From: Amycolatopsis sp. FDAARGOS 1241
Lineage (GTDB): Bacteria; Actinomycetota; Actinomycetes; Mycobacteriales; Pseudonocardiaceae
NCBI RefSeq assembly: GCF_016889705.1
Contig: NZ_CP069526.1
Span: 3,224,001-3,288,000 of the forward strand
DNA: 64,000 nt
Direction of reading: 5' to 3'
The translations under genes and the position numbers were made by a program. Positions 9,982-63,257 of this stretch are shown here, piece by piece (the stretch's first letter is position 1; every line of letters begins with the position of its first letter). A model generated the notes under the pieces. That model was not told where the DNA came from and made no database searches. It saw only the letters and a program-made list of their open reading frames with translations.

Positions 9982-10310
9982 CGGGCACCTCCCGAAAGGC
10001 GCGGCCGCAGCCGGGCCGCCGCGGGCGCCGACTTTTCCGCGCGGAGCAAGGCTTCGCGCACCGCCTCGATGCCGTCGGGGTCCAGCCGGTAGTAGCGCCG
10101 TCGCGGTCGGCCCGCCTCGGCCGGATCGGTTTCCTCCCAGCGCGAGCGCAGCCACCCGGCTCTCTCGAGCCGCGCGAGGATCGGGTGGATGGTGCCGCTG
10201 GGCAGCCCGGCGGCAGCGCAGATCTCGAGCCCGTAGCGCTCCTGGGCGGGCTCCCGCAGCAAGGCGTGCAGCACCAGCTGAGTCGGGAGGGTCATCCGCG
10301 GAGCGGTCAT
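9978..10310 (-). CDS. PadR-family transcriptional regulator
   Basis: The 110-residue protein is a single PadR winged-helix domain. It begins MTLPTQLVLHALLREP and contains the conserved ERYGLEI segment, a recognition helix in GLPSGTIHPILARLERAGWL, and the wing RRRYYRLDPDG. It lacks the long C-terminal dimerisation helix of larger PadR proteins, as in the short PadR subfamily 2. Members repress efflux or detoxification genes and respond to small aromatics or drugs. It is the first gene of a two-gene operon and is divergent from the chitinase. Confidence 0.88.
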   Translation of the reverse strand: MTAPRMTLPTQLVLHALLREPAQERYGLEICAAAGLPSGTIHPILARLERAGWLRSRWEETDPAEAGRPRRRYYRLDPDGIEAVREALLRAEKSAPAAARLRPRLSGGAR

Positions 10311-10380
10311 GGTTGAACCTACCTAGCCCGGGCCGTCCGGAGAAGCCCCCGATTCCGGCGTGCGGGTGACCTGTGCCGAA

Positions 10381-10392
10381 TGGTCTGGACAT
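10381..10392 (+). promoter_or_regulatory. Candidate DasR (dre) operator upstream of the chitinase
   Basis: TGGTCTGGACAT lies about 53 bases before the chitinase start and matches 9 of 12 positions of the Streptomyces dre consensus TGGTCTAGACCA. DasR is the GlcNAc-responsive repressor of chitinolytic genes in actinomycetes. The position fits, but no DasR gene is in the window. Confidence 0.45.
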
Positions 10393-10444
10393 GCTTCGAT
10401 TGGGCCAGATAATAAGCCTCTGCCCGCCAAGCCGAAGGTGCGCG

Positions 10445-12197
10445 ATGAGGCGGTTCCGACTGTCCCTGTTCGCTGCGGTGGTGCTGGCCGCCGTGCTGCC
10501 CGGGGTGGCCCGAGCGGACAACCTGTTGGTCAACGCCGGGTTCGAGAACGGTGTGAGCGGGTGGACGTGCGCGGCCGGTGCGGTGGCCACGCAGCAGCCC
10601 GTGCGCGCGGGCACCGGCGCGCCGGCCGGTCCGGCGTCGGCGGGGGACACGGGCCAGTGCAGCCAGACGGTGCGAGTGCGGCCGAACACCGCGTACACCG
10701 TCCAGGCGTGGGTGCGGGGCAATCCGGTGTACCTGGGGGTCGCCGGAGGGCCGTCGACGTGGACTGCCGCGGCCGAGTACACGCGGTTTCAGCTGCAGTT
10801 CACCACGGGGGCGAGCCAGACGTCGGCGCAGGTGTACCTGCACGGGTGGTACGGCGCGGGCACCTACTACGCCGACGATGTCAGCCACGACGGGCCGGGC
10901 GGCGGGACCCCGGGCACGCCCGCGGCACCGGGCACCCCGGCGGCGACCCAGGTCACCAGCACGTCCGTCGCGCTGAGCTGGGCCGCCGCGGCGGGCAGTC
11001 CGGCCGGGTACCGCGTGTACGAGGACAACACGCTCAAAGCCACGGTCTCCGGCACGTCGGCCACCCTCGCGGGCCTGCAGCCGTGCACCACGCACACCTA
11101 CGCGGTGGCCGTGTACAAAGCCGCCGGGGAGTCGCCGAGGACCACGCCGGTCTCCGCGACCACCGGCGGTTGCACCAGTGCCGGCCTGCCGGAGCACGCC
11201 CTCATCGGCTACCTGTACGCGAGCTTCGCGAACGGGTCCGGTTACGTCCGCATGGCCGATGTGCCCGACGTGTGGGACATCGTCGCCCTCGCGTTCGGCG
11301 AGCCGACCTCGCCGACGTCCGGCGACATCGGCTTCACGCGCTGCCCGGCGAGCGAGTGCCGGCGTCGAGAGCGCCGCGGACTCCACCGCCGCGATCCGGG
11401 CCAGGCAAGCGCAGGGCAAGAAGGTGCTCATCTCCATCGGCGGGGAAAAGGGCCAGGTGCAGCTCACCACCACGGCCGCGCGCGACGCGTTCGTCAGCTC
11501 CGTCTCGGCGATCATCGGCAAGTACGGCTTTGACGGTCTGGACGTCGACTTCGAAGGCCACTCGCTGTCCCTCAACCCCGGCGACAGCGACTTTCGCAGC
11601 CCCACCACACCCGCCGTGGTCAACCTGATCTCGGCGCTCAAGACGCTGAAAGCGCGCTACGGTGCCAGGTTCGTCCTCACGACGGCGCCCGAGACGTTCT
11701 TCGTGCAGGTCGGTCACCAGTTCCACGGCGGCTCGTCGGGCGGCGACCCGCGCACCGGCGCCTAGCCGGAGAAGTGGTCCCAGTTCACCGACCACGTCAT
11801 GATGCCCCGCAAGCCCGGCTGGGTGCCGCCGCGCAGCGAGTAGCCGCCGCACCCGGTGCCCTTGACGAGGCAGGTGAGAGTCGCCTGCACGTCGGCGGGT
11901 GCGGTGTAACCGTTGCCGGCGTTGACCGTGGCCGGCACCGACGGCGATCTGCTCGTCGCGCAGACCCGGGAAGAACGCGCCACCGGCGACGGTGAACCCA
12001 GCCTTCAGCATGTCCGTCATCGCGACGTGGAAGTCGGCGCCACCCATGGTGTGGTACTGGTTGTCGAGCCCCATGACCGGGCCGGAGTTGTAGTCCTGGA
12101 CGTGCAGCACCGTCAGGGAGTCGCGCAGCTCGTGGATCACCGGCAGGTCTGGGCGTTCCAGAACGCACACGCCTCGTTCCTCGACGCCCTGCCGTGA
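10445..12197 (+). pseudogene. GH18 chitinase gene, frameshifted and with an internal inverted segment
   Basis: The protein starts with a signal peptide (MRRFRLSLFAAVVLAAVLPG). A family-16/4-like carbohydrate-binding domain (about 10517-10905), a fibronectin type III domain (about 10915-11170) and a GH18 domain follow. The GH18 active site DGLDVDFE lies at 11532-11555. A 2-base loss near 11355 shifts the frame. The plus-strand frame then reaches PETFFVQVG...DPRTGA and stops at 11763. The next expected part (LPVIHELRD... to ...WSVNWDHFSG) is encoded on the minus strand between 12147 and 11765. The final residues WAFQNAHASFLDALP and a stop (12150-12197) return to the plus strand in the original frame. 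A further frameshift lies near 11935. No full enzyme can be made from this arrangement. Confidence 0.88.
11765..12147 (-). other. Inverted segment of the chitinase gene (about 383 bp)
   Basis: The minus strand encodes the GH18 C-terminal region LPVIHELRDSLTVLHVQDYN, MGGADFHVAMTDM and GIMTWSVNWDHFSG. Flipping 11765-12147 restores GAYLPVIH at the left junction and FSGWAFQN at the right junction, apart from two extra bases (TC, 12148-12149). The only shared sequence at the ends is a 5-base inverted GCCGG. No recombinase gene or long inverted repeat is nearby. Confidence 0.85.
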
Positions 12198-12268
12198 CCC
12201 ACCCGACCTGGCGGTGCGTGATCGTTCTCGGGCAAGCTGGGACGTACCCGAGATCGTGAGGACCACCG

Positions 12269-13018
12269 ATGGACTTGAACCTGGTCGGCAAGCGGGCGCT
12301 GGTGACCGGCGCGTCGAAGGGGATCGGCGCCGCCATCGCGGAGGTGCTGGCCGGCGAGGGCTGCCACCTGCACCTGGCCGCGCGCAGTGAAGACGCGCTG
12401 CAGGACCTGGCGAAGAAGCTTCGCGACGCGCACGGTGTCGAGGTGACCGTGCACGCCGTGGACCTGCGCGTACCCGAAGACCTGGAGCGCCTCGCCGCGG
12501 CGACCGCCGACGCGGGCATCCTGGTGAACAACGCCGGGGACATCCCGGCGGGCACGCTGCACCAGGTGGACCGCGACCGGTGGCGGCACGCGTGGGACCT
12601 CAAGGTCTACGCCTACGTCGACCTCTCCCGCCTGTTCTTCGCGCGCCTGGGCGAACGAGGCAGCGGCGTGATCGTCAACGTCATCGGCGCGGCCGGCGAA
12701 CGGCCCACGGCCGGCTACATCGCGGGTGGCGCGGGCAACGCCGCGCTCATGGCGTTCACCAAGGCCCTCGGCGGCGACGGCCCGCGCCGCGGGGTGCGGG
12801 TCGTCGGCGTGAACCCCGGTCCGGTCGCCACGGAACGGATCACGGCCATGCGCGCCGCCAACGCCGACGTCGACGCGAGCTTCGCCGCGCTGCCCTCCGG
12901 CCGCGTCGCCGAGGCCCGCGAGGTCGCCGACCTGGTGGCGTTCCTGGCCTCGCCCCGGGCCGCCTACATCAGCGGCACCATCGTGACCATCGACGGCGGC
13001 ATCTCCGCTGCGGGCTGA
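12269..13018 (+). CDS. SDR-fold protein lacking the canonical catalytic Tyr and Lys
   Basis: The 249-residue protein has the NAD(P)-binding motif TGASKGIG, LAARSEDAL, the NNAG motif and the C-terminal GTIVTIDGG of classical short-chain dehydrogenases. Where the YxxxK motif should be, the sequence reads GYIAGGAGNAALMAFTKAL. Aligned by the following helix, the Tyr position is Gly and the Lys position is Asn. The usual Ser region reads NVIGAAG. It may use a shifted Tyr, or act as a non-canonical reductase or a binding protein. The start codon ATG 12269 lies 71 bases after the chitinase remnant. It is convergent with the GbsR-like pseudogene. Confidence 0.85.
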   Translation: MDLNLVGKRALVTGASKGIGAAIAEVLAGEGCHLHLAARSEDALQDLAKKLRDAHGVEVTVHAVDLRVPEDLERLAAATADAGILVNNAGDIPAGTLHQVDRDRWRHAWDLKVYAYVDLSRLFFARLGERGSGVIVNVIGAAGERPTAGYIAGGAGNAALMAFTKALGGDGPRRGVRVVGVNPGPVATERITAMRAANADVDASFAALPSGRVAEAREVADLVAFLASPRAAYISGTIVTIDGGISAAG

Positions 13019-13723
13019 TCATCGCGCGCCGAAGACGTGGCGCCACCGCTCGGCCGAGGTCGCCAGGTCGCGGCCGACGTGGTCGAAGTAGTCGCCCATC
13101 GCGGCCAGGCGCGCGGCCGCGGGGGAGCCCGCCGGCAGTGCGGCTCCCGACCGGGCCGAATCGGCCCAGGCGGCGCACACGTCGGCCTCGCGCCGGCACG
13201 AGCGGTACCACGCGTCGTCGTCGACGCGGTAGCGGTCACGGGTGCCACGGGTGCCACGGATGCGCCGGACGAGTTCGAGCTGTTCCGGACAGGCGACCGC
13301 TTTGGACACCGACGCCGGGCTCCACGCGCGCCACGAGATCGGCCGCCGACAGCTCAGCCTCGCCACCGGTGAGGAGCGCGGCGAGGACGCGTGCGGCCAT
13401 CCGCGGGAGTCCGGTGTGGACCATCATCGTGGTGAACCGTTCCTCGAACCCGGTGAGGACGGGCCCGTCCGCGGGCATCCGCCGGGCGCGCGCGAGAGCG
13501 TGGCCTCCTGGGCGTGGTCGGCGTGGTCGGCGCGGTAGCCGCCGTTGCGCCGGATCTCCCGGCTCACCGTCGACGTCGGCCTGCCCAGGCGCCGGGCGAT
13601 CTCGGCGTAGGGCAGCCCGCCCGAGAGCCCCTCGGCGACGGCGCGGCGGTCTTCGTGCGTGAGTCGGCTTCCCGGTATGGGGCCGGCGTAGCGCTCATTG
13701 CAACGGCAAAACCCGAGTTGCAC
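13019..13723 (-). pseudogene. GbsR/MarR-like regulator with N-terminal HTH, two frameshifts
   Basis: Three consecutive minus-strand frames add up to one regulator. An N-terminal HTH reads PYAEIARRLGRPTSTVSREI (13724 to about 13490). A winged-helix region reads MPADGPVLTGFEERF...AARVLAALL...SAADL (13478 to about 13310). A C-terminal part reads PASVSKAV...YFDHVGRDLATS (to 13019). The first shift is explained by an extra CG in a CGCGCG run, the second by loss of bases just before the recognition helix. Homologues in actinomycetes begin MPGGRLT; here the matching codon at 13678 is ATA, so the start is unclear (GTG 13723 is the nearest upstream option). The gene is divergent from a methyltransferase it probably controlled. 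Confidence 0.7.
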
Positions 13724-13742
13724 TCGCGACAGTCATTGCAAC
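13698..13742. promoter_or_regulatory. Repeated TGCAAC operator-like motifs in a divergent promoter
   Basis: CATTGCAAC occurs twice and GTTGCA once in between, giving direct and inverted copies of TTGCAAC in an otherwise GC-rich region. The position between the GbsR-like regulator and the methyltransferase suggests operators for that regulator. Confidence 0.5.
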
Positions 13743-19328: not shown

Positions 19329-20252
19329 TCAGTTCCGTTCGGCGCTCCCGGCTCGCGGTCCCGGAGCGCCGAACTGCGTGCGCAGGAAGTCGATCTCCGC
19401 GGTGATCATCGCTTCACGAGTGCGCAGTCCGTAGACGTGGCCGACGTCGTCGAGCCACCGGAAGTCCGCGTCGGCGCCGGCGTGCCAGTAGGTGGTGACC
19501 AGGGTTTCGCTCTGGATGATGGGGACGGCGTCGTCGGCGGTGCCGTGGACGGCGAGCAGGGGCGCGGCCGACGCGGTCACGTGCGAGAGCGGGCTCGCGG
19601 CCGCGGCGAGGGCCGGGTGCGGGGCGGGCACGCCGCCCAGCAGCCAGGCGTGCGGGTCTTCGCCGGTGGCGCGGAACGGTGAGCTCGGTGGGGCTTCGGC
19701 AGCCGCGTGAAGTCCGAGGGCGCGCTCCACGCCATGACAGCCTGCACGCCGCTGTCCGGCCCGAGGACGCCGATCTCACCTTCGAGGTCTTCGCGGCCGC
19801 CGGTCACGGCGAGCATCACCGCCAGGTGCCCGCCCGCGGCGTGGCCCCACGCGGCGAAGCGGTCCGGGTCGAGCAAGAGCGCCGGGTGGGGGTGGCGCAG
19901 CCAGCGCACGGCCGCCTTCACGTCGTGCGGCTGTGCCGGGTACACCGCCTCACGGCTGTGTCTGAAGTGGACCTCGGCGACGGCGAACCCCGCGGCCGGC
20001 AGGCGGTCGCCCGAGGTAACGGCCGAGTGGCGCGTGCTTGGGCGAGCCGACGGCGAAGGCGCCGCTGTGCACGAACACGACCACCGGCCGGCCCGTCGCG
20101 GGTGGCGGGCCGGCCGGCACGACCAGGTCGAGCAGCAGCGGCCGGTAGCCGAGCAGGGGCGCGACCACTGCGTCGCGGTAGAGCAGACAGCCCTGGCCCG
20201 GCTCGGGTTCCGGCGGGGCGGTCTGCGGGAGAGCGGGCAGCACGTGGGTCAC
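19329..20252 (-). pseudogene. Alpha/beta hydrolase remnant, two frameshifts and no catalytic Ser
   Basis: Read across three frames from GTG 20252 the protein is an esterase/lipase of the HSL/kynurenine-formamidase-like fold. It has VVVFVHSGAF (variant of the HGGG oxyanion loop), then a one-base shift near 20015, FRHSREAVYPAQPHDVKAAVRWL and the nucleophile elbow GHAAGGHLAV. A second one-base shift occurs near 19690, followed by the Asp in GTADDAVP and the His in DDVGHVYG. In the elbow the usual G-x-S-x-G is G-H-A-A-G, so the nucleophile is Ala. Loss of the Ser together with two frameshifts argues for a true pseudogene. It is convergent with the SDR, 3 bases away. Confidence 0.75.
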
Positions 20253-20332
20253 GGCGCCGACTATCACCCACCGCGAGCCGGAACCGGTAGCCGTACCAGA
20301 AAGCGGGAGAGCCGACGGATTTCGTACAGCCG

Positions 20333-20608
20333 TCACAGGGCGAACGCGATCGACCGCACGACGATCGCGGCGACGAAGACCACCGTGAACGCCAGGTCGA
20401 TCGACAGCCCGCCCGCGCGGACGGGCCGCAGGACCCGGCGCACGGGCGCGATCACGGGCTCGGTCGCGCGGTGGCTGTAGTAGCGCGCTTTCCCGAGCCA
20501 GGGCGGCCCGGTGGTCGCCACGCGCGTCCAGTCCAGGATCATCCGCGCGATCAGCACGAGGATGAACAGGGTCAGCAGGTACCCGACCAGAGTTCCGATC
20601 AGGCTCAT
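20333..20608 (-). CDS. YggT-family membrane protein
   Basis: A 91-residue protein with two hydrophobic segments (about 3-25 and 65-88) and the family motif RVLRPVRAGGLSIDLAFTVVFV. YggT proteins occur near cell-division genes and have been linked to osmotic tolerance, though the exact role is unclear. Here it is isolated. ATG 20608 has GAGGAG upstream, and the in-frame ATG 13 codons earlier lacks such a site. Confidence 0.88.
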   Translation of the reverse strand: MSLIGTLVGYLLTLFILVLIARMILDWTRVATTGPPWLGKARYYSHRATEPVIAPVRRVLRPVRAGGLSIDLAFTVVFVAAIVVRSIAFAL

Positions 20609-20698
20609 CACACACTCCTCGGATGGCAGTCGTTGCACCCTGCTCAACGCCGGAAGAGCCCGGGGAGTGTCCCGTTTGCCGGAGTTCTCAGCGACTTA

Positions 20699-34805: not shown

Positions 34806-35005
34806 CCGGGCGCTCGACGGTCCGATCGTGCTCGGGCCATGGAGCGGGCGCGGGTGCCGGTGGTGCCGGGACCGTCCGACGTGCGTCGGCCGGTGGGGGA
34901 CGTGGCCTCGGGCCGCGTCCCCGTCTTGTCGCGCCGAGTCGGTCTTGCTATCGGACTCTGCTCGTGGGAACTCGAGTGGGAAAGTCCTGCTGACGGAGGC
35001 TTTCC

Positions 35006-36032
35006 GTGACCGAGCTACCGCGCAAATTCGCCGCCCACCCGTCGGTGCGGGCTGTGCTGGAGCGGGGCGTCCCCCAGCGGCCCGGGGCGATCGACGCGGC
35101 GTGGCTGCGGGAGCTGGCGCTGGCGGCGGGGGGCCGACGACGTCGCGGCGGTGTCGCTCGACCACGCCGACCTGGCGGGGGAGCGCCCGCACGTGCTCTC
35201 GGCCCTGCCCGGCACGCGCAGTCTCGTCTCGCTGGTCGTGCGCATGAACCGCGACAACCTGCGCACGCCCGCGCGCAGCGTCGCGAACCAGGAGTTCCAC
35301 CGCAGCGGCGAGATCATCAACGAAGCGGCCCGCACGATCACCCGCGCGCTGCAGGACGCCGGCCACCGCGCGCTCAACCCGGCGGCCACGTTCCCGATGG
35401 AGAAGGACCGCTTCCCCGGCCGGATCTGGGTCGGGGCGCACAAGACCGTCGCGGCGGCGGCCGGGCTCGGGGTGATGGGCTTGCACCGCAACGTGATCCA
35501 CCCGAAGTTCGGCAACTTCGTCCTGCTCGCGACGCTGCTGGTCGACGCCGAGGTGACCGAATACGGCGAAGCCCTGGACTACAATCCCTGCGTGGAGTGC
35601 AAGCTGTGCGTGGCCGCGTGCCCCGTCGGCGCGACCGCCAAGACCGGCGAGTTCGACTGGGCCGCGTGCTCCACGCACAACTACCGCGAGTTCATGGGCG
35701 GATTCACCGGGTGGGTCGAGACCGTGGCCGACAGCGGTGACGGCGCCGAGTTCCGGTCGCGCGTCACGGATTCCGAGAACGCGTCGATGTGGCAGAGCCT
35801 GTCCTTCAAGGCCAACTACAAGGCGGCCTACTGCATGGCGGTGTGCCCGGCGGGGGAGGAAGTGCTCGGACCGTACCTGCAGGACCGCCGGGAATTCATG
35901 CGCACGCTGCTGCGGCCGTTGCAGGACAAGGAGGAGACGGTGTACGTCACCAGTGGCTCGGCCGCCCAGTCCCATGTGGAGCGCCGGTTCCCGCACAAGA
36001 CAGTGAAGGAGGTCCGCGGCCGCAAACCCTGA
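35006..36032 (+). pseudogene. 4Fe-4S double-cluster protein (QueG-like fold), one frameshift
   Basis: GTG 35006 after ACGGAGG opens MTELPRKFAAHPSVRAVLERG. A six-G run near 35130 has one base too many, and the frame continues as ADDVAAVSLDHADLAG to the stop at 36032. Removing one G restores about 340 residues. The protein has an HKTVAAAAGLGVMGLH segment like epoxyqueuosine reductase and reductive-dehalogenase relatives. The first cluster site is CVECKLCVAACPVGA, and a second cysteine pair lies in AYCMAVCPAGEE. No corrinoid-binding domain is visible. It is probably an electron-transfer reductase of unknown substrate. The defect is a single base in a homopolymer, so it may be an error. Confidence 0.7.
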
Positions 36033-59347: not shown

Positions 59348-59943
59348 CCACCGATCTGTTCGCCGCGCTGCCGGCGACCGACGAAGCCGCGCAGGTGCGC
59401 CTGCGCGCGCGGCTCACGACCGCGGCGGACCGCGCAGGACTGCTCGACGTCGCGTACCGCACCGTCGATTCGCCCGTCGGCCCGCTGCTGCTCGCCGCGA
59501 CCGGTGCCGGCCTGGTGCGCGTCGCGTTCACCGTCGAAGGCCACGACGCGGTGCTCGAGTCGCTCGCCGGTGAGATCAGCCCGCGCATCCTCGCTGCCCC
59601 CGCGCGGCTCGACCGGGTCGCGCGCGAGCTCGACGAATACTTCACCGGTCGCCGGCACGAGTTCGACGTCGACGTGGACTTCCGGCTGGCGAAGGGCTTC
59701 CGGCGCGAAGTGCTGCAGCACCTCGCTGACATCCCCTACGGCGGCACGCGCAGCTACGCGGAAGTCGCGGCCGCAGCGGGCAGTCCGAAGGCCGTGCGGG
59801 CTGTCGGCACTGCGTGCGCGCGCAACCCCGTGCCGCTCGTCGTGCCGTGTCACCGCGTGGTGCGCTCCGACGGCAGTGCCGGTCGCTACCGCGGCGGCGA
59901 GGAGGCGAAGCGGGTTCTGCTCGCCCTGGAATCGGCTGCCTGA
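59344..59943 (+). CDS. Methylated-DNA--protein-cysteine methyltransferase (second)
   Basis: The 199-residue protein has an extra helical N terminus (about 1-35), then the Ogt/Ada-C core with VDSPVGPLLLAATGAGLVRV, IPYGGTRSYAEVAAAAGSPKAVRAVG and VVPCHRVVRSDGS (acceptor Cys169). The extension makes it longer than the first copy and resembles the Ogt partner of sigma factor genes in actinomycetes. It is coupled to the sigma factor gene through ATGA. Confidence 0.92.
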   Translation: MTTDLFAALPATDEAAQVRLRARLTTAADRAGLLDVAYRTVDSPVGPLLLAATGAGLVRVAFTVEGHDAVLESLAGEISPRILAAPARLDRVARELDEYFTGRRHEFDVDVDFRLAKGFRREVLQHLADIPYGGTRSYAEVAAAAGSPKAVRAVGTACARNPVPLVVPCHRVVRSDGSAGRYRGGEEAKRVLLALESAA

Positions 59944-59980
59944 TGCGTACGCTGAGCCGGTGGACGGACCCGGCCCGGGG

Positions 59981-60623
59981 GTGATCAGGGTCTTCCTCGT
60001 CGACGACCACGAACTGGTGCGCCGCGGAGTCGCGGATCTCGTGGAGGACGAGGAAGACCTCACCGTGGCGGGCCAGGCCGCCTCGGCCGCCGAGGCGCTG
60101 GCGCGGATTCCCGACCGGACGTCGCCGTGCTCGACGTGCGCCTGCCCGACGGCGACGGCGTTCGGCTGTGCCGTGACCTGCGGGCTACGCTGCCGGGCCT
60201 GCGGTGGCTGATGCTCACGTCCTACACCGACGAGGAGTCGATGGTCGGCGCCGTGCTCGCGGGCGCCGACGGGTACGTCATCACGGACACAAGGGGCTGC
60301 AGCTCATCGACGCGGTGCGCCGCGTGGCCGCCGGGCGCAACTTGCTCGACGAACGCGCGGTATCCGCGGCGGTGGGGAAGGTGCGCGAGGGCGCGCGCAA
60401 CCCGGGCCCGCTGGCCGCGCTGACCGAGCAGGAACGCGTACTGCTGGATCTCATCGGCGAGGGACTCACCAACCGGCAGATCGCCGAACGGATGTTCCTG
60501 GCGGAGAAAACGGTAAAGAACTACGTGTCGCGGCTGCCGGCGAAGCTCGGCGTGGAACGGCGGACCCAGGCGGTCGTGCTCGTCACCGCCTTCCACGACG
60601 AGCGGCGGTGCACCACCGGTTGA
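59981..60623 (+). pseudogene. DosR/DevR-like response regulator, two frameshifts
   Basis: GTG 59981 gives [20 protein letters not shown]; a shift near 60115 leads to [21 protein letters not shown] (phospho-acceptor Asp in VLDVRLPDG). A second shift near 60290 leads to [24 protein letters not shown]. The C-terminal [39 protein letters not shown] is almost the same as M. tuberculosis DosR. The conserved active-site Lys of the receiver (GYVxK) is Thr here (GYVIT). The DosR family controls dormancy and hypoxia genes. As given the gene cannot make a complete protein. Confidence 0.82.
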
Positions 60624-61451
60624 TCACGGCCGGCCCGGCGAGGGCGGGCGGACCGCGCTCGCCGGGCCGTTTCCAGCGGTGCCCGCTCGGGTACCGGCGC
60701 GGGGGCGCCGTGGCCGAGGCACAGCGGGACCTGCGGCCACAGCCCGCCGCCGAGCAGGCCGCGCAGCTCGCGGCGGCTCGCCGGGGTCAGCACGTCGGTC
60801 CAGTGGGCGGCCGACTGGCCCGCGACCGTCGCGGTGAGCAGCACGCGTTGCACGGCCTGCCCCGCGTGCAGCTGCGCGAGCGGGGTGTCGTGGAGCGAGC
60901 CGACGGCCACGAGCAACCGTTCGGGTGCCAGGTCGAAGCCGCTGGAATCCGTGCGTCGCAGGATTTCGCGCAGCCGGGGAAGGTGCTCGGGGCCGATCGT
61001 GGCGGGCCACGCGCGTTCGAGCTCCGCGGCGCGGCGCAGTTCGCGGTGCACCACCGGCGGCACGACCGCGGTCGTTGAACGGGCTGCGTTGCCGCGGCGG
61101 ATGCGGATGGCTCCCGCGAGCCGGCGCTCGATCGGCGTCACCGGCTCGAGTCCGCGCGGGCGCACCACCGCCAGGAGATCGGGCCGGCTCTGAGCGGGCA
61201 GCACCCACACGTCGGGGTGGCAGCCTGGGCTTTCACCGCGAGCCGAAGGTTGAGCAGGGCCGCGCCGCAGTCGAGCAGCTGCCCGCGCCGGCCGTTGCGC
61301 GACGGCGCGACGTAGAGCTCGATCGACACCGGGGTGCAGCGGAACCGCCACGGGCGCCCCTCGTGCAGGGCGGCGGTGTGGTCGCGGCGACCAGCACCGC
61401 CCGCACCTGGCGGTCGGTGAGCCGTCCGACGGGTATGACTCCGGCCTTCAC
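60624..61451 (-). pseudogene. Acg-family nitroreductase-like gene, two frameshifts
   Basis: From GTG 61451 the frames read KAGVIPVGRLTDRQVRAVLVAATT, then LHEGRPWRFRCTPVSIELYVAPSRNGRRGQLLDCGAALLNLRLAV, then PDLLAVVRPRGLEPV, ERRLAGAIRIRRGN and RLLVAVGSLHDTPLAQLHAGQAVQRVLLTATVAG. This is the Acg (Rv2032-like) FMN-binding oxidoreductase, a DosR-regulon member. Two one- or two-base shifts near 61378 and 61225 break it. The last frame runs past 60624 into the dosR gene and stops at 60521, so the true C terminus is uncertain. Confidence 0.7.
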
Positions 61452-61593
61452 GGTGCGACCTCTCGGGCACGTCGGCCGTCCACGGCGCGCTCTCCCGCCG
61501 ACCCTGGCTAGTGCCGAACGTCCCGCGTGGCGGGTCCAAGGGTCGCCGGTGACGGGTGACCCCGGGCCCGGATTTCCGTGCCAGAGTGGGGGG

Positions 61594-62200
61594 ATGCCGG
61601 ACGTCGACGACCGGAGACCGGGCACAGCCCGGGCCGGGGAACGGGACCGGATGGACGCGCTGCTCGCCACGGTCCCCGGGTTCTCCCCGGGCCTGGAGCT
61701 GGACCGCACGCTGCGCCGGGTCGTCGCCACCACAACGGATCCCGCCGGAGCCGGTTGCGGCGCCCTCGCCGCGGTGGACCAAGACGGGGCCACCACGGGG
61801 TTCGCCGGCGCGCACCGCGAGCGCTTGTCCCTGACGGAGAAGAAGACGGGCGAGTGCTTCACCGACGACGACGACCTGGCGTTGGCCGGTCTCGCGGCTG
61901 CCGATGGGATCGCGTTCCCCGGCACCGAGGACACGCACGGGGGCACCGCGTGGCCGGACCCGGACGCCGGCGCGCTGACCGGCGCACCGGTCACCTCGCT
62001 GGTTGCCGTTCGCGCGTCCGGGCAGGCACGGTTCACCGACCGGCTCGTGATCGACGGGCCGGGCACCAGTGCCGGGCTGCCGGCCGGGAGTCGCGCGCGG
62101 CGGGCTGCCGAACCTCGAACGGCGGTCCGCCGAGTCCGGCGGCACGTTCCAGGGCGAGCCGGCGTTCCCGGGCCGCACACGTCTCGTGTGGACAGTGCGC
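61594..62200 (+). pseudogene. DosS/DevS-like sensor kinase remnant with internal deletions
   Basis: From ATG 61594: RDRMDALLATVPGFSPGLELDRTLRRVVATTTD, a GAF-domain start, then after a missing middle part LTEKKTGECFTDDDDLALAGLAAADGIAF, the end of the GAF domain. The HisKA_3 domain is absent. In another frame (62093-62200) GLPNLERRSAESGGTFQGEP and RTRLVWTVR match the last ATP-binding motifs of DosS-type kinases. The kinase core (His box, N box) is gone, so this is a true remnant. Confidence 0.7.
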
Positions 62201-62300
62201 CGCCCGGTGGCCGGCGCGCGCGGTGCGACCCTCGACGTCCGCTCGTCCGTCCACATCGGACCCGACGGGGCGGGCCGAGTTGCGGCAGGAGGTGAGTGCG

Positions 62301-62903
62301 ATGAGCGGGTCGGCGGAGTGGTTCAGGCGGATGGGCCGCACGCTGTTCGCCCGGCACGGCGGCCTGGCGCGGCCGTCGGACCGGTTCCAGGCGGTGGTGC
62401 TGGCCGTCTTCGTGGTGCTCGCCCTCGTGGCGGTGCCCATCGCCGTGGGGCTCGGCTCGGGCACCACGGCGCAGCGCGGCCGGCAAGCGGCCGAGGAGGC
62501 AGCCGCGCGCCACCAGGTTCCCGCGACGCTGCTCGTCGACGCGTCTCCCGACGACGCCGCGATCGGACCCGACGGCGTCCCGGCCGGACCCAGCCCGCGC
62601 GACGCCCGCTGGCGGCTGCCCGGCGGCGGCTACCGCGTGGCCAAGGTCGACGCCGACTTGCAGCTCCACGCGGGGGAAACGGTCCCGATCTGGGTGGACC
62701 GCGCCGGCAACCTCGTGCCCCCGCCACTCGAGCGTCGCACCGCCGTGGTCGAGGGCGTGCTGACGGGGTTCGGCGTGTGGGCCGGGTCCTGCGCGGCGCT
62801 GGCTCTGCTCTACGGCGGGCTCGTGCTCGGCCTGGACCGGCACCGGCTCAAGCGCTGGCAGCACGAGTGGATCGTCGAGCTCGACCGGAGAACCCCATCG
62901 TGA
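62301..62903 (+). CDS. Rv1733c-family membrane protein
   Basis: The 200-residue protein has two membrane helices (FQAVVLAVFVVLALVAVPIAVGLG, about 32-55, and VVEGVLTGFGVWAGSCAALALLYGGLVLGL, about 150-180) with an external domain of about 90 residues (ATLLVDASPD, VDRAGNLVPPP). This is the layout of Rv1733c, a DosR-controlled dormancy antigen. ATG 62301 follows AGGAGGTGAG. It is the only clearly intact member of the local dormancy gene set. Confidence 0.88.
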   Translation: MSGSAEWFRRMGRTLFARHGGLARPSDRFQAVVLAVFVVLALVAVPIAVGLGSGTTAQRGRQAAEEAAARHQVPATLLVDASPDDAAIGPDGVPAGPSPRDARWRLPGGGYRVAKVDADLQLHAGETVPIWVDRAGNLVPPPLERRTAVVEGVLTGFGVWAGSCAALALLYGGLVLGLDRHRLKRWQHEWIVELDRRTPS

Positions 62904-62942
62904 CCGGCCCCGGCCGGCCCTTCGGAGGAAGGCGGAACACCC

Positions 62943-63236
62943 ATGCTCACCCTGTCCGAATCCGCCACGGAAGCCATCGACCGGCTCACCGTGACCTACC
63001 AGGTCGGACGTCGCGGCGGCTTCCGGCTCAACCTGGCCGGTCCGCCGGAGGCCGGCTGCGCCGTGGATGTCGAAGCCGCGCCCTGTCCGCGCGGGGACGA
63101 CGACGTGGTCGCGTTCGACGAGATCCAGCTCTTCCTGTCGCGCGAAGCCCGGGAGGGTCTCACCGAAAAGATCCTCGACGCCCGAGAGGACTACGAGGGA
63201 CACTTCACGTTCTCGATCGTCAACGCCGGGTGCTGA
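62943..63236 (+). CDS. HesB/IscA-like small protein
   Basis: The 97-residue protein begins MLTLSESATEAIDRLTVTYQ and has the beta-rich HesB-like core with FRLNLAGPPEAGCAVDVEAAPCPRGDDDVVAFDEIQLFLSREAREGLTEKILDAREDYEGHFTFSI. The C-x-n-C-x-C triad of true iron-sulfur scaffolds is not conserved, as in the actinomycete HesB-like proteins of unknown function. ATG follows GGAGGAAGG. It may be in the same unit as the Rv1733c-like gene. Confidence 0.8.
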   Translation: MLTLSESATEAIDRLTVTYQVGRRGGFRLNLAGPPEAGCAVDVEAAPCPRGDDDVVAFDEIQLFLSREAREGLTEKILDAREDYEGHFTFSIVNAGC

Positions 63237-63257
63237 CCCGCCGGCCCGGGAAACCGG

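Follow-up and report, generated by a model that had tools for sequence, protein, structure and literature searches.

In the genome of Amycolatopsis sp. FDAARGOS 1241, the segment at positions 11765-12147 of the window (the whole 64,000-nucleotide stretch of DNA that was analysed) is the reverse complement, over 383 nt, of its normal place within a GH18 chitinase gene, and this chitinase gene is a pseudogene. It is very probable that the segment was turned round by a one-off, recombinase-free inversion in the pseudogene, through end joining or template switching. An earlier sequence-only reading had noticed the reversal and offered three explanations for it; of these, the rare microinversion is supported, while the invertible switch is unsupported and the assembly artefact unlikely. 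The inversion presumably happened once and is presumably fixed, and its mechanism we infer as set out below. We propose no function for it and read it as a scar left in a dying gene.

The inverted segment and its joints

The two nearest relatives, used as references, are labelled G028 and G094 in this analysis. A blastn comparison of 10300-12400 with the G028 orthologue returned three pieces, abutting to within a few bases and running plus/minus/plus: the first ends at 11764 on the plus strand (81% identity), the second covers 11759-12154 on the minus strand (87%, E 2e-137), and the third begins at 12146, again on the plus strand (76%, with gaps). This confirmed that the GH18 C-terminal coding region sits, on the other strand, between the two parts that naturally adjoin it. 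The further claim, that a flip in place restores the family sequence at both junctions, was borne out when 11765-12147 was reversed in silico, the only remainder being the two extra bases already noted (12148-12149). The left flank is 88% and the inverted piece 87% identical to G028, so both are parts of the same origin. The left joint makes the sequence CTAG (11762-11765), which supplies a plus-strand stop in the gene frame and also the end of the minus-strand frame of the inverted piece. The parts of the gene are laid out as follows:

10445..11355, plus strand: first part of the pseudogene, with signal peptide (by eye), CBM_4_9, fn3 and the start of GH18 (alignment to the 590-aa orthologue and its Pfam domains)
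11353..11360, plus strand: frame break, the window being 2 nt shorter than the orthologues (alignment)
11361..11764, plus strand: left flank of GH18 with the DGLDVDFEG catalytic motif, in the second frame and in normal orientation (alignment)
11763..11765, plus strand: TAG stop created by the left joint, within the CTAG that is a minus-strand stop too (ORF ends)
11765..12147, minus strand: inverted GH18 C-terminal coding segment, 383 nt (relatives' alignments, joint reconstruction, locus probe)
11936..11944, minus strand: frame break within the inverted segment, which here lacks 2 nt relative to the orthologue (alignment)
12150..12197, plus strand: 3' end of GH18 (WAFQN...) and stop, in normal orientation (alignment)

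Order of the segment in related genomes

Comparison with intact orthologues, which the sequence-only reading had proposed as a check, found every relative examined in the normal order. With a protein probe, this order was seen in 99 of 99 other loci, the window alone being reversed. The 99 loci comprise 19 from the same genus, limited to the best matches, and 80 retained out of 144 in genome contigs; the latter are partly Amycolatopsis too, so that the sets overlap in genus and species are possibly counted twice, and records of the own or a very near genome were possibly excluded from the contig scan. A search of 80 Amycolatopsis genomes, the own genome included (query 11500-12147, E 1e-20), matched 71 and left 9 without a match. 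Both pieces were found in 69 of the 79 other genomes, in 74 copies counted by eye, each in normal order; the remaining matching genome, G034, yielded a single piece only. The inverted state was thus absent from all relatives examined (99 loci; 74 two-piece copies). Reversal in place, with the ancestral order in relatives, is what a one-off microinversion would leave.

A strict pattern recovered the intact stretch 81 times among 107 loci scanned, with a length of 385 nt in three rows (G028 twice, G094), 388 nt in 75 and 391 nt in three. The window segment measures 383 nt and not the 385 nt of G028 and G094 because it has lost 2 nt internally. Where the window aligns to G028 and G094, 11765-12147 was the only reversed local piece. 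A protein search with the first frame returned no near-identical relative, the best match being 70% identical over 80% of the query among the 120 best of 1575 hits (7997 scored candidates). Synteny between the window and G028 ends at about 67 kb. Past the window end, a 7.4-kb block of the own contig (G000 C1, 3298875-3306229, or 74875-82229 from the window start) has a counterpart of 91% identity in G094, there oppositely oriented and shifted by about 100 kb; this is a larger, non-local rearrangement.

Decay of the chitinase gene

The intact orthologue is a protein of 590 aa in which Pfam calls CBM_4_9, fn3 and GH18 domains. Before its decay, the window copy was like other GH18 chitinases with CBM_4_9 and fn3 in domain order and sequence; it differs from them in being broken and without a full-length open frame. 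Its identity as GH18 is evident from DGLDVDFE and from a PF00704 match above cut-off over profile positions 53-154, and PF00704 matches the intact orthologue as well. The first reading frame ends at 11533 and lacks the stretch DxxDxDxE, which we take to be the GH18 catalytic motif. Beyond the inversion itself, there are two 2-nt losses relative to the orthologue, near 11356 and near 11940. No open GH18 frame spanning the whole domain was found in the window copy, given its frame breaks and stops. This further breakage (two frame breaks, stops) had gone unmentioned in the sequence-only reading, which held that the flanking plus-strand frame is kept across the segment; that is so in arithmetic only (11763 and 12150 are 387 nt apart), the frame being closed by stops at 11763, 11841 and 11907. 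Elsewhere the genome has five other GH18 loci, four of them above cut-off.

Conservation was assessed in 111 of 120 listed proteins (555-605 aa; nine dropped) together with the window. Of 271 columns that are conserved in 97% or more of the other 111 sequences, the window differs at 15, the second-highest value among the 112, where the others average 1.8; of 141 invariant columns it differs at 6 (again second; average 0.35). This measure favours sequences without near kin in the set, the window among them; G028, which has several near kin, scores 0. The gene is considered a pseudogene because of its frame breaks, its stops and this excess of changes at conserved residues.

By codon position (1/2/3), the changes assigned to the window lineage number 14/23/15 and 4/8/8 in the two larger normally oriented parts, and 5/1/13 in the inverted part; on the G028/G094 stem the corresponding counts in the three parts are 3/5/9, 0/1/2 and 0/0/5. 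Third-position changes make up 13 of 19 in the inverted part versus 23 of 72 in the other two (P 0.007), a bias contrary to the prediction of equal decay. The comparison of the flanks with the stem (23 of 72 versus 11 of 20) reached P 0.07 only. Pairwise dN/dS between the window and G028 was 0.47, 0.19 and, in the inverted part, 0.15, compared with 0.19, 0.04 and 0.10 between G028 and G094; the value of 0.15 is not raised relative to other pairs (0.10 to 0.32, or 0.13 to 0.32 when the G028 and G094 pair is set aside). From these substitution patterns, the flanks seem to be under relaxed constraint, unlike the inverted piece. The loss of the gene was probably recent.

Origin of the inversion

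The joints carry the following features:

11759..11764, plus strand: left arm of the imperfect outer inverted repeat (6 nt, five of them matching), exactly outside the inversion (P about 0.014, post hoc)
11765..11769, plus strand: GCCGG, inner 5-nt repeat, at chance level (random-pair comparison)
12140..12144, minus strand: CCGGC, its partner, at chance level (random-pair comparison)
12148..12149, plus strand: right joint, with two additional bases that match a copy of one nucleotide from each breakpoint edge (chance of fit 0.21)
12150..12155, minus strand: right outer arm of the imperfect 6-nt inverted repeat (repeat test)

The 5-base inverted GCCGG to which the sequence-only reading drew attention is indeed present, and it is no more than chance would supply, since about 41% of random pairs with the same 383-nt spacing share a repeat of at least 5 nt. 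The outer repeat, tested after it had been sighted, matches at five of six positions at the exact breakpoints. At most 1 nt is shared at the joint, and the two extra nucleotides are consistent with a fill-in of 1 nt per side. Such scant homology, together with a small insertion, is what illegitimate joining or template switching would produce. The genome also has the genes for NHEJ, with two Ku loci and ten LigD-polymerase matches, six of these above cut-off. The occurrence of ten LigD-polymerase-like matches and two Ku loci within one genome (all on the own contig, G000 C1) is recorded here as an observation in its own right.

We tentatively favour an inversion in place through Ku/LigD joining of two staggered breaks that left a 1-nt fill-in trace at both, a specific route to which we give somewhat less than an even chance. 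Two closely spaced staggered breaks would have released the middle fragment (385 nt in G028 and G094), which would then have been rejoined in reverse by end joining of the Ku/LigD type, a 1-nt fill-in at each break giving rise to the two extra bases. End-joining scars have been described after deliberate cuts in Streptomyces ambofaciens; in the available part of that report, half of the repair scars had microhomologies of 1-6 nt and 40% had either 1-4 nt filled in or one nucleotide added (PMC5869714). The two cases have in common an actinomycete host, Ku and LigD-type genes, at most 1 nt shared and bases that resemble fill-in. They differ in that the S. ambofaciens breaks were deliberate, and the word inversion is absent from the main text of that report, so far as it was available (PMC5869714). 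Against end joining, two breaks within about 385 nt are needed, and the fit of the extra bases to fill-in has a chance of 0.21. In the accessible portion of a study of human-chimpanzee microinversions, the authors judge two breaks about 20 nt apart highly unlikely (PMC8755829); in our view, breaks about 385 nt apart are less far-fetched than that.

A further point against end joining is the imperfect outer repeat, which sits exactly at the breakpoints (P about 0.014, post hoc) and favours template switching. On the replicative alternative, the segment was turned round at this outer repeat, either by template switching or by microhomology-mediated break-induced replication. This route belongs to the same class of explanation as the one we prefer and is set apart from it by mechanism only. 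The human-chimpanzee microinversions are its nearest parallel. According to the same portion of that study, they are 17-33 nt long and all have flanking inverted repeats of 3-75 nt near their boundaries, and the authors propose microhomology-mediated break-induced replication while finding template switching hard for very short or imperfect repeats (PMC8755829). Those primate cases and the present one share reversal in place, a short and near-perfect outer inverted repeat and the lack of a recombinase; here, by comparison, the inversion is of about 385 nt, more than ten times as long, is bacterial, lies in a pseudogene and has two extra bases at one joint (PMC8755829, as above). The match of the outer arms at five of six positions exactly at the breakpoints speaks for the replicative route. 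Its difficulties are the length of the segment, the shortness and imperfection of the repeat, at which the primate authors would find template switching hard, and the two extra bases, which demand an additional step. Overall, we place end joining, with about an even chance, ahead of a replicative template switch at the outer 6-nt repeat, which is a plausible though less probable origin.

Assembly quality and broken genes nearby

If the true order were normal, the piece would have to have been flipped by the assembler or in the consensus. The gene does have small indels, as in noisy assemblies, and the inversion is judged from the assembled sequence. In an unfiltered count around rpoB, used as a core region, 15 of 110 frames were broken, versus 9 of 119 in G028 and 4 of 120 in G094. 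Inspection by eye of six of the flagged core frames showed them to be shadow frames or non-coding extensions upstream of genes, for example over ribosomal genes. With a coding filter (GC3 and start codon), the broken genes around rpoB fell to 2 of 143, versus 2 of 138 in G028 and 0 of 138 in G094, and the noisy-assembly reading was dropped; these counts are mechanical and uncurated. As the genes around rpoB are mostly intact, an artefact is unlikely. Further against it, the same gene has amino-acid changes at conserved sites, which indel noise does not produce; neither the aligned part of the window nor some 174 kb of aligned core showed another local inversion; and the genome (9.8 Mb) is in two contigs and listed as 100% complete. 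We consider an artefact improbable, at a small fraction of the weight given to either route to a genuine inversion. Minus-strand hits in the core were considered as candidate inversions and rejected, being two related genes in opposite orientations and a repeat of 125 nt that sits within a continuous plus-strand alignment to G094. Lists of indels in the window lineage, in which intergenic gaps and paired alignment gaps also figure, did not serve as frameshift counts.

Broken genes are more frequent near the chitinase gene. In the window plus 20 kb, 8 of 51 genes are broken, one of them the chitinase, compared with 2 of 143 in the core of the same genome (Fisher P 0.0004). The same region has 3 of 48 in G028, from which the difference is not significant (P 0.20), and 0 of 47 in G094 (P 0.006). 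The seven genes other than the chitinase are intact in G028 and G094 and split over several frames here by mechanical count:

13022-13732: split gene in the window
19332-20687: split gene in the window
34994-36029: split gene in the window
59348-60620: split gene in the window
60524-63257: split gene in the window
64313-65203: split gene past the window end, in the same numbering
65806-66853: split gene past the window end, in the same numbering

The orthologues of six of the seven are, by Pfam, a MarR-like regulator, an alpha/beta hydrolase, a protein with 4Fe-4S domains, a response regulator and two short-chain dehydrogenases. We read these broken genes as gene decay in an accessory region and not as noise, and they are presumably dispensable.

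Comparison with invertible elements

Intragenic invertons, in which an inversion inside a bacterial coding sequence flips back and forth, have reportedly been described by Chanin et al. in 2024, a study cited in PMC11868660. The present segment resembles them in being an inversion inside a bacterial coding sequence; theirs have inverted repeats, and none such was found here beyond the imperfect outer 6-nt repeat and the 5-nt one at chance level. Invertons are located through their inverted repeats, according to the available part of PMC11892184. A switch of this kind would have a site-specific recombinase toggling the chitinase on and off, and the precise boundaries within a single gene would suit it, as would the tyrosine and serine recombinases encoded in the genome (16 and 9 matches). 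Within 10 nt of the ends, however, no perfect inverted repeat exceeds 5 nt, a length at chance level, and none of the 25 longest of 28 inverted pairs joins both ends. Searches with PF00589 and PF00239 gave no match in the window, the nearest lying about 79 and 84 kb away. Since GCCGG is at chance level and the window is devoid of matches to tyrosine or serine recombinases, the switch is unsupported. The gene would, moreover, be frameshifted in either orientation, and the inverted state is absent among the relatives examined. Such a switch is very unlikely, more so than an assembly artefact. Least probable of all, to the point of being negligible, is that a separate gene holds the minus-strand segment: open minus-strand frames do cover 11765-12147, but long antisense frames are common in this GC-rich window, the segment is a GH18 C-terminus with 87% DNA identity that is absent from its own normal place, and the TAG of the left joint terminates the minus-strand frame too.

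Implications

The inversion, on our best reading, is an ordinary kind of mutation, neatly preserved in a dying gene. A report on bacterial genome rearrangement uses the word microinversion (PMC2483231). Among the papers that our literature searches listed, we recognised no description of repeat-free inversions inside actinomycete genes, and we make no claim that none exists. Short inversions in place, without long repeats, may easily be missed in bacterial genes, as annotation would display only a broken gene. A clear case with aligned relatives offers a guide to finding more of them, and to asking whether end joining or template switching is responsible. For the organism itself, the finding says no more than that one GH18 gene among several is dead. 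If the inversion did arise by end joining, and if the rate of such events is steady, the pseudogenes of actinomycetes would constitute a fossil record of double breaks.
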